The notes beneath the pieces were generated by a model. That model was given only the letters and a program-made list of their open reading frames with translations, was not told the DNA's origin and ran no database searches. From Prevotellaceae bacterium (GTDB lineage: Bacteria > Bacteroidota > Bacteroidia > Bacteroidales > Bacteroidaceae): 40,831 bases of DNA. Position 1 is the stretch's first letter, and every line of letters starts with the position of its first letter. Position numbers and translations under genes: made by a program. The stretch covers positions 1 through 40,831 of the forward strand of contig JAJPYT010000156.1 of the NCBI GenBank assembly GCA_021204845.1, read 5' to 3'. Below, in pieces: positions 16,075 through 40,831 of this stretch.

Positions 16075-16106
16075 GGGTGTGTCAAAAAGGAGCACCTCTG
16101 GCGCTC
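16075..16106. repeat. GGGTGTGTCAAAA motif followed by a short hairpin (GAGCACC-TCT-GGCGCTC)
   Basis: 13-bp motif shared with 40602 and 40637; minus-strand hairpin GAGCGCC-AGA-GGTGCTC matches the 40670 hairpin. Confidence 0.75.
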
Positions 16107-16238
16107 GTACTGCTTGCGAACGGCAAAGCCCTCATCGAAGATAAACTCTATGTATCTCGTTTTGATACATCCTCTTGCGAAAAGTGGAGTGGTTAGCTTC
16201 GTTGAGGGCTTCACCGTTCACCATTTTTCTTATATGGC

Positions 16239-22108: not shown

Positions 22109-22135
22109 GAACGGTGCAACCCTCAGCGAAGCTAA
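22109..22135 (+). repeat. 27-bp repeat A, copy 1 (GAACGGTGCAACCCTCAGCGAAGCTAA)
   Basis: identical to 22160-22186. Confidence 0.95.
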
Positions 22136-22159
22136 TGATACTAAGTATTTACCCTGTGG

Positions 22160-22186
22160 GAACGGTGCAACCCTCAGCGAAGCTAA
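22160..22186 (+). repeat. 27-bp repeat A, copy 2
   Basis: identical to 22109-22135. Confidence 0.95.
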
Positions 22187-22294
22187 AAAGTTTATATTAT
22201 ACGTGCGTATATAGGTAAATATAATATAATAAACTTTTTGCTGGTCTCCAACCTACCTGTTCCGCCTCTCCTGAATCACCACACCAACGTGCTG

Positions 22295-22334
22295 TGGTCA
22301 CCGCACTGATTCACATGCGTCAGTGCGGTGACCA
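22295..22334. repeat. 15-bp perfect stem hairpin TGGTCACCGCACTGA-N10-TCAGTGCGGTGACCA
   Basis: read directly; no adjacent T-tract. Confidence 0.93.
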
Positions 22335-22356
22335 GCCTTCGTTCGTGCGGTGAAGT

Positions 22357-22400
22357 TTAGCTACGCTGAGGCTTTAGCTACGCTGAGGGTTGCACCGTTC
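22357..22400 (-). repeat. Repeat A, inverted: partial copy 22357-22371 plus full copy 22374-22400 (26/27)
   Basis: TTAGCTACGCTGAGG then TTAGCTACGCTGAGGGTTGCACCGTTC, reverse complement of repeat A with one substitution. Confidence 0.93.
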
Positions 22401-22515
22401 TCATTCGTTTTTTTGAAGAAAAGGAACTCATCCTGGTGTTTTATATTGAGGAATGTAGTATATTTGCCTATGGCTTCCAGTTGGTTTAAGCCTTTAGAGA
22501 CCTTTGACAACTGAT

Positions 22516-38931: not shown

Positions 38932-38963
38932 TTTGTGTATATCGGCAATTGTTTCTATATTTG
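38932..38963 (+). promoter_or_regulatory. dnaB promoter: TTTG (38932) - N20 - TATATTTG (38956)
   Basis: fits Bacteroidetes -33/-7 consensus, 25 bp before ATG 38989. Confidence 0.7.
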
Positions 38964-38988
38964 CGAAGCTAAAACAGCAACGGGATAT

Positions 38989-40557
38989 ATGGCAGGAACT
39001 TCATCTGACAAAGGATCTCGCAGCCGGCAGAAGACGAAGGTTGTGGAGGTGCCAAGCGTCGACTCTTTCGGTCGCAAGCAGCCGCAACAGCTTGATTTCG
39101 AGGCTGCCGTGCTGGGTGCCTTGCTTGTCGAGCAGGACGCTTATTACCGCGTGTCCAACTTCTTGAAGCCCGATGCCTTCTATGACCACCGCCACCAGCT
39201 CATCTACGATGCCATCCAGTCTCTGGCTGTCAGCCAGCGCCCTGTCGATGTGCTCACCGTGCCGCAGTACCTGCAGACCCAGGGAAAACTGGAAGAGGCT
39301 GGCGGAGCGTATTATGTTGCGGGGTTGGCTCAGAATGTGGTCACCAGTGCCCATATAGAGTATCAGGCAAAGATTCTCATGCAGAAGTACCAGGCGCGTC
39401 GGCTCATCACCTTTGCCAGCCGTGTCTCGCGCGACGCTTTCGACGAGACTACCGACGTGGCAGACCTCATGCAATTTGCCGAGGCGAGCCTCTTCGAGCT
39501 CTCTCAGCAGACCCAGACCAGCTCTTACACGCAGATAAATCCCATCATTCACCAGGCGTACGACCAGTTGCAGAAGGCGGCGCAGCGCTCCGACGGTCTT
39601 TCGGGTCTCGCCTCTGGTTTCGAGGATTTGGACCGCAAGACCAGCGGCTGGCAGAACAGCGACCTCATCATCGTTGCGGCGCGTCCCGCCATGGGAAAGA
39701 CGGCTTTCATGCTTTCAATGATTAAACAGATGGCTGTCGACCAGCATGTGCCTGTCGCCATGTTCTCGCTTGAGATGTCCTCTGTGCAGCTGGTCAACCG
39801 CCTTATAGTCAATGTGTGCGAGATACCAGGCGAGAAGATTAAGAGCGGGCAGTTGCGCCCCGATGAGTGGAACCAGCTCGACTCGCGCATAAGCCAGCTA
39901 ATAGATGCGCCGATATTTGTGGACGACACTCCCTCGCTCAGCATCTTCGAGTTGCGCACCAAAGCCCGCCGTCTGGTTCGTGAGCACAGCGTGCGCGCCA
40001 TAATGATAGACTACCTCCAGCTCATGAACGCCAGTGGTGTCAACTTCGGCAGCCGACAGGAGGAGGTATCCACCATCAGCCGCAACCTCAAGGCTCTTGC
40101 CAAGGAACTCGACATACCCGTTATCGCCCTCAGCCAGCTCAACCGTGGCGTGGAGAACCGCGAGGGCAACGAGGGCAAGCGCCCCCAGCTGAGCGACCTG
40201 CGCGAGTCTGGAGCCATAGAGCAGGATGCCGACATGGTCTGTTTCATCCATCGCCCTGAGTATTATAAGATTTATGAGGATGACCGAGGCAACGACCTCC
40301 GAGGCAAGGCTGAGATTATTATAGCCAAGCACCGCAATGGACCCGTGGGTGAGGTGTTGCTTACCTTCCAGGCGCAGTTCGCCCGTTTCCAGAATCTCAC
40401 GGACAGTTCCTACGTTCCCCTGCCTGGTGAGAGCAGCGTAGTTGCCAGAATGCAGAAGGACGAGATAGACGCCATCAACTCCATGAATGTTAACATTCCC
40501 CTCGACAGCGATTCCTTAGACCTGCCCTCCGGTCCTGACGCTCCTCCCCCTTATTAA
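38989..40557 (+). CDS. dnaB: Replicative DNA helicase
   Basis: DFEAAVLGALLVEQDAYYRVSNFLKPDAFYDHRHQLIYDAI; AARPAMGKTAFMLSM; DYLQLM; LSQLNRGVENR; start at ATG 38989. Confidence 0.96.
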   Translation: MAGTSSDKGSRSRQKTKVVEVPSVDSFGRKQPQQLDFEAAVLGALLVEQDAYYRVSNFLKPDAFYDHRHQLIYDAIQSLAVSQRPVDVLTVPQYLQTQGKLEEAGGAYYVAGLAQNVVTSAHIEYQAKILMQKYQARRLITFASRVSRDAFDETTDVADLMQFAEASLFELSQQTQTSSYTQINPIIHQAYDQLQKAAQRSDGLSGLASGFEDLDRKTSGWQNSDLIIVAARPAMGKTAFMLSMIKQMAVDQHVPVAMFSLEMSSVQLVNRLIVNVCEIPGEKIKSGQLRPDEWNQLDSRISQLIDAPIFVDDTPSLSIFELRTKARRLVREHSVRAIMIDYLQLMNASGVNFGSRQEEVSTISRNLKALAKELDIPVIALSQLNRGVENREGNEGKRPQLSDLRESGAIEQDADMVCFIHRPEYYKIYEDDRGNDLRGKAEIIIAKHRNGPVGEVLLTFQAQFARFQNLTDSSYVPLPGESSVVARMQKDEIDAINSMNVNIPLDSDSLDLPSGPDAPPPY

Positions 40558-40601: not shown

Positions 40602-40650
40602 GGGTGTGTCAAAATAATAAATCGCAAGCAGTCCGGGGGTGTGTCAAAAT
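40602..40650 (+). repeat. Two direct copies of GGGTGTGTCAAAAT (40602-40615, 40637-40650)
   Basis: identical 14-mers 35 bp apart; third 13-mer copy at 16075. Confidence 0.93.
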
Positions 40651-40669
40651 GGGAAATTGCCAGCGGAAA

Positions 40670-40831
40670 GAGCGCCGAAGGTGCTCCCCTTTGGTAGCCG
40701 CGGGCCTTTACGGCCTGCGGTTAAGGAACGAGCAGGGAGTGAGAGCCGAAGGTTCTCTCCGTTATTCCGTGGGTTGCAACCCACGGCAGAGGGTTATAAC
40801 CCTCTGAATATTAGAGGGTACCTTCGGCACC
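40670..40831. repeat. Array of short palindromes/hairpins downstream of dnaB, truncated by the window end
   Basis: GAGCGCC-GAA-GGTGCTC (40670-40686), CCGCGGGCC-N5-GGCCTGCGG (40698-40720), GAGAGCC-GAA-GGTTCTC (40741-40757), CCGTGGGTTGCAACCCACGG (40767-40786), CAGAGGGTTATAACCCTCTG (40787-40806), GGTACC-TTC-GGCACC (40817-40831). Confidence 0.9.

Follow-up and report, generated by a model that had tools for sequence, protein, structure and literature searches.

What is the series of short palindromes with which a 40,831-nucleotide stretch of Prevotellaceae DNA comes to an end? The stretch (the window) is contig C155 of a genome assembly, G000, that consists of 206 contigs and is 83.7 % complete. 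Its last 162 bases are taken up by six consecutive hairpins and the contig end falls inside the sixth. The array begins 45 bp 3' of the stop of a gene for a DnaB-like replicative DNA helicase (38935..40557, plus strand; a 540-aa ORF named by its sequence motifs). The array is real, as a first-pass annotation had proposed, and far above chance. Two perfect 20-bp palindromes (H4 and H5) are the only ones in the whole 40.8-kb window, the density of GC-rich 7-bp hairpins over the last 165 nt is ~16 times that of the window overall, and the array folded better than 200 of 200 shuffled sequences (z ~ -4.9). It proved to belong to an interspersed repeat, ~230 bp long and imperfectly palindromic, of which the window contains the initial ~70 %. 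The whole repeat comprises eight hairpins (H1-H8), and a complete copy of it folds with z = -13.8. The expectation that the array extends beyond the window was thus correct, as complete copies have H6-H8; the part cut off by the contig end comprises H7, H8 and the terminal repeat of the right-hand side.

Within the window, H1 (GAGCGCC-GAA-GGTGCTC; 40670..40686, plus strand) and H3 (GAGAGCC-GAA-GGTTCTC, with a G.T wobble third from the loop; 40741..40757, plus strand) were placed by hairpin tabulation and covariation, H3 also by cross-species comparison. Copy alignment and covariation defined H2 (CCGCGGGCC-TTTAC-GGCCTGCGG; 40698..40720, plus strand). Its 5' foot is GTAG (40694..40697, plus strand), read from the sequence and the copy alignment, which corresponds to NTAG in other copies and to ATAG or TTAG in many of those in G000. 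H4 (CCGTGGGTTGCAACCCACGG; 40767..40786) and H5 (CAGAGGGTTATAACCCTCTG; 40787..40806), neither assigned to a strand, were delimited by full-copy alignment and covariation and abut each other exactly as annotated; H4 lies at the centre, the place of the gene in the autonomous form. H6 (GGGTGCC-GAA-GGTACCC on the minus strand; 40816..40831), read from the sequence and from full copies, loses one base to the contig end. The annotated 9-mer GCCGAAGGT indeed occurs three times, at 40674 and 40745 on the plus strand and at 40820 on the minus strand.

The array is a member of a repeat family. One complete copy used as query gave 87 matches in G000, ~14 of them near full length, and the genome holds at least a dozen near-complete copies together with many fragments. 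Since the two halves of the element are imperfect mirror images, the query matched in both orientations. Many contigs of G000 end inside the element, and such repeats account for contig breaks in these genomes exactly at those places. Twelve full copies align over ~232 bp, with H1 (GAGCGCC-GAA-GGTGCTC), H2 (TAG-CCGCGGGCC...) and H3 (GAGTGCC-GAA-GGTACTC) in the left half, H4 (CCGTGGGTT..AACCCACGG) and H5 (C(AGA|TGG)GGGTT..) in the centre, and H6, H7 and H8, which mirror H3, H2 and H1, in the right half. Compared with 150 genomes of the family and 398 of the phylum, the G000 core matched its own genome only, so that the sequence of the repeat is a species-level feature. When genome and viral contigs were scanned for exact 18-mers, one true relative emerged, L072 (the same contig as G603 C105), a Prevotellaceae MAG of the same genus and the closest named relative with the element; the other matches that were read were single and isolated. 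A plasmid search with the core and a phage search with a related element gave no DNA match, and no earlier description of such a repeat in Bacteroidales was found in the literature searched. Other small hairpin elements, either CAGTCGC..GCGACTG + GTATGCGAC..GTCGCATAC or AACGGTGAAACCCTCAGCGAAGCTAA, were present in 4 of roughly 20 cores. All four occupy the loop of H4 or H5 and leave the outer stem unbroken (L095 on C206, L096 on C195, L022 on C185 and L017 on C67). In one further copy, L018 (C130:8963-9194), the H4-H5 centre runs in the opposite direction to the outer hairpins, as though it had been flipped in a recombination of H3 with H6.

A search for a RAYT (Y1 transposase) gene, suggested in the first-pass annotation, showed that Y1 was the right place to look in congeners, but no match to the Y1_Tnp profile was found in the G000 assembly itself (84 % complete). 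A Y1 match is present in 64 of 139 genomes of the genus. Among loci L155-L184, 25 of the 28 genes with readable motifs have the Y---Q--HH signature, all 25 with HUH, and their proteins form one clade in a phylogenetic tree, apart from two typical IS200 proteins. For 24 of these 25 subclass-1.2 genes the inverted flank similarity exceeded all three same-locus controls, with a median score of 71 vs 18 (Wilcoxon p = 9e-6, 25 genes); comparison with mismatched genomes is only moderately sharp, as families share hairpins, and the same-locus control is the better test. In G604, of the same genus, whose arrays share the architecture of the window, two such Y1 genes (L185 and L186) each lie beside window-type H1/TAG-H2/H3 hairpins. 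A complete gene-less array is located directly upstream of the L186 gene (L186:1505-1951), and further gene-less copies occur elsewhere in that genome. The genes of G589, G633, G675 and G546 are framed on both sides, in inverted orientation, by H1, (G)TAG-CCAGCC..GGCTGG (H2) and H3, of which H3 has the same wobble as in the window. The GTAG foot was also found in G604, G589, G633 and G546. These hairpin sets were partly read by eye, and the genomes compared are incomplete MAGs.

The hairpin sets are not uniform. H1 differs between G000 and G604, H3 is without the wobble in several Y1 families, and three recognisable hairpins per side do not accompany every subclass-1.2 gene (e.g. L167, L182 and L198 of Bernardetia). 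Placed as a label on the Y1 tree, the wobble does not mark one clade; it takes 4 changes, and equally strong clustering was obtained in only 8 of 500 shuffles. Beyond the genus two loci were compared, one for and one against generality: a gene on a Persicobacter plasmid (order Cytophagales) has the H1-TAG-H2-H3 order on both sides, whereas the Bernardetia gene (L198) does not show it. At L185, L186 and L136 of G604, tandem units of 22 bp and 44 bp were observed next to the Y1 genes (e.g. CGTGCGG..GTC repeats and half-H1/H2 units), and some congeners have two Y1 genes within 2-8 kb on one contig (L178; G602:C121, G604:C24).

The GTGCC-N3/4-GGTAC wobble hairpin is amplified over a reversed control in 6 of 139 genomes, with counts (hairpin/control) of 98/22 in G000, 115/7 in G604, 164/30 in G589, 132/23 in G633, 54/20 in G110 and 31/7 in G603. 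Amplification was seen in 3 of the 4 genomes that have a Y1 gene framed by the wobble hairpin vs 3 of 135 (Fisher p = 2e-4). Examples from G110 and G555 consist of H1, TAG-H2, H3, a short centre, H6, H7 and H8 without a gene, and the copy of G555 corresponds to the terminal parts of the G589-type transposase element. G110 itself yielded no Y1 gene. Its gene-less copies (L189-L196) are bounded by an outer terminal repeat of their own, GGCAATGATATAGGAGWTGACCT, and one of them is located directly behind a terminator-like hairpin. We consider it probable that the window array represents one copy of an element that is REPIN-like, non-autonomous and part of a Y1/HUH single-strand transposase family (TnpA_Y1 subclass 1.2, Y---Q--HH). 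The window copy has no gene and is most probably the passenger of a subclass-1.2 enzyme, with its hairpin ends as the single-strand substrates, and it would be the Y1 protein that mobilises the element. The enzyme may be encoded in the 16 % of the genome that the assembly lacks, may have been lost or may be supplied by relatives.

The element is surrounded by an outer layer of a different kind. The outer terminal repeat GGGTGTGTCAAAATGGG with its arm occupies 40637..40669 of the window (plus strand), as established by genome copy count and by comparison with an IS1182-family terminus. It has 56 copies (30+26) in G000 at <=1 mismatch vs 0 in the reversed control, and in most copies it is located outside H1. 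It differs by one base from GGGTGTGTCAAAATAGG, with which an insertion sequence of 1.84 kb ends in congeners, one that encodes an IS1182 transposase (NF033551, E = 1e-138); the terminal repeat common to both is GGGTGTGTCAAAAT[AG]GG. The window also holds the remnant of an older element, a terminal repeat GGGTGTGTCAAAAT with arm ATCGCAAGCAGTCC (40602..40634, plus strand), recognized by comparison with the unoccupied copy C157:950, in which the matching flank runs on into GAGCGCCGAAGGTGCTC. H1 of the remnant is gone and the next element begins precisely at that point, the second leader starting exactly at the place of the older H1. Similarly, the stretch C122 55722-56034 takes the exact place of an H2. 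For 21 leader ends the outer flank could be matched to an unoccupied copy elsewhere, and in 20 of these the junction lies at a hairpin foot vs 23 % in the null expectation (p = 3e-12). Transposition of IS1272, a member of the IS1182 family, replaces stem-loops (PMC5678879, PMC4923244), and the hairpin-foot junctions fit the same process.

The near identity of the leader to the congeners' terminus, the junctions and the example of IS1272 would also be expected if the element were a plain MITE of an IS1182-family insertion sequence, with the hairpins as incidental cargo or landing sites. However, G604 has hairpin arrays with 0 copies of the GGGTGTGTCAAAATGGG leader and the arrays of G110 have another outer repeat, GGCAATGATATAGGAG, so that the IS1182-type layer is species-specific. 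Moreover, hairpin order tracks Y1 genes, not IS1182 genes, and a search for a DDE_Tnp_1_6 (PF13751) transposase gene in the incomplete G000 assembly gave no match. An IS1182 MITE as the whole story, dropped on account of the leaderless arrays of G604 and the flanks of the Y1 genes, is thus already disfavoured and we regard it as unlikely. The alternative of a decayed IS end, raised in the first-pass annotation, holds in part, as the outer leader is an IS1182-type terminal repeat; the hairpin core is independent of IS1182. The outer layer was presumably moved by an IS1182 enzyme.

The hairpin core covaries. In the 12 G000 copies 96.8 % of cells pair and both partners have changed in 7 of 61 pairs; the covariation score is 0.067 vs 0.026 +/- 0.004 in shuffles (0 of 500), and slid controls do not exceed 0.035. 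The compensatory stem changes pointed out in the annotation were hereby confirmed, both genome-wide and across species. Two pairs in H6 and H8 never form; these are the wobble on the wrong strand (A.C), which shows its polarity. Among 143 such hairpins genome-wide the wobble position is G.T in ~80 %, G-C in the rest and A-T or T.G in none, in agreement with the annotated wobble at a constant position, although this constancy is partly built into the choice of the 9-mer. Between species the outer stem of H3 varies with full compensation, while the inner C-G, C-G and G.T never change.

Covariation, stable RNA folds and the intergenic site just after dnaB could also reflect selection at the RNA level, with the hairpins kept as terminators, mRNA 3' ends or small RNAs. 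This is very unlikely. The element is mirror-symmetric and the GAA form is on opposite strands in its two halves, so half of the hairpins in any transcript would be in the A.C form. In addition, the hairpins track a transposase gene, an Rfam scan of six loci gave no family matches, and C(GNA)G loops are no less suited to DNA than to RNA. Selection on a structured single strand, proposed earlier as either RNA or single-stranded DNA, remains sensible, but the Rfam scan gave no support to its RNA version, and the cross-species evidence points to Y1/HUH single-stranded DNA hairpins. Slightly less probable again are neutral paired changes, through template switching within palindromes or exchange of whole hairpins and no structural selection: variants look swapped between positions (e.g. 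CCGTGGGTT at H2 and H4), one copy has an inverted centre (C130) and elements replace hairpins, yet template switching would correct the constant G.T, which is kept in ~80 % of copies and across species.

For a gene-less element served by a subclass-1.2 enzyme, the following mechanism can be proposed. Each end of the family would carry a maximum of three hairpins, H1 on the outside, then the TAG-tagged H2 and finally H3 on the inside, the two ends being inverted. The autonomous form would have its transposase gene between the two H3s, where the window has the H4/H5 palindromes instead. The single strand would fold during replication, and the enzyme would read the TAG foot and the hairpins and then cut, at a putative site, excise and reinsert the element. 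Since a G.T wobble is A.C on the opposite strand, it may mark the substrate strand of each half despite the near-palindromic nature of the element. IS1182-type terminal repeats constitute a second, independent layer in this species, and as they insert by hairpin replacement, copies would come to nest inside one another. The MAGs examined showed neither an empty site nor an excision product nor a transposition event.

The element resembles the REPINs, BIMEs and REPtrons of RAYTs (TnpA_REP, class 2) in its short palindromes in inverted pairs, in part also in their (G)TAG foot, and in its many gene-less copies, and in relatives a Y1/HUH gene has these repeats on its flanks. The inverted palindrome pair of a REPIN, forming one larger hairpin, was also found here, with H1-H3 mirrored by H6-H8 (z = -13.8). 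However, the enzyme has Y---Q--HH and not Y..NP, and scores 27 bits with NCBIfam REP_Tyr_transpos at a cut-off of 80. Class 2 REPs have one hairpin per end and a strict GTAG (GT[AG]G) foot, compared to up to three different hairpins and NTAG here, and the Y1 gene is lacking in the G000 assembly (84 % complete) while present in G604 and others. The CGTC-tagged REPs reported in Bacteroidetes (PMC3733652) differ likewise in their foot, which here is NTAG. IS200/IS605 elements (TnpA_Y1 subclass 1.1) share a Y1/HUH enzyme and hairpins at the ends; unlike these, the present family has several hairpins per end, inverted ends and mostly gene-less copies, and the typical IS200 transposase (Y---Q without HH) with one hairpin per end was not found in it. 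The IS1182 family (IS1272) shares the outer terminal repeat and the junctions at hairpin feet, but here neither the element nor its own assembly has a transposase gene, and the hairpin core is independent.

Subclass 1.2 of TnpA_Y1, with its Y---Q--HH signature, was described as a relative of the IS200 transposases that lacks the features of insertion sequences and of REPs, with no REP and generally no terminal structures listed (Quentin et al. 2018, PMC6006769). The enzymes found here agree with it in DH[IV]H + Y---Q--HH, a length of about 150 aa, occurrence in Bacteroidetes and low copy number. In contrast to the published description, the genes have inverted hairpin sets on their two sides, in the same order in congeners and in Persicobacter, and related gene-less copies are amplified. 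There is perhaps an even chance that in Bacteroidota the subclass-1.2 Y1/HUH proteins serve a mobile system of a distinct kind, with compound inverted hairpin ends (H1, TAG-H2, H3), gene-less derivatives that colonise genomes, a fixed G.T wobble marking the substrate strand in one group and, in this species, IS1182-type elements nesting into the hairpins. The role of subclass 1.2 was left open in 2018; the hairpin sets are a candidate DNA substrate, which makes the question directly testable. In such a system two unrelated mechanisms would converge on one set of hairpins, HUH single-strand transposition on the one hand and stem-loop replacement by IS1182 on the other.

The host of G000 is a gut-type bacterium. 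The window contains more inverted-repeat elements at 22109-22403 and 16077-16219, made up of GAACGGTG..AACCCTCAGCGAAGCTAA / CCCTCATCGAAGATAA units with C-GAA-G mini-hairpins whose stems change, some of them with a GTGTGTCAAAA terminus.
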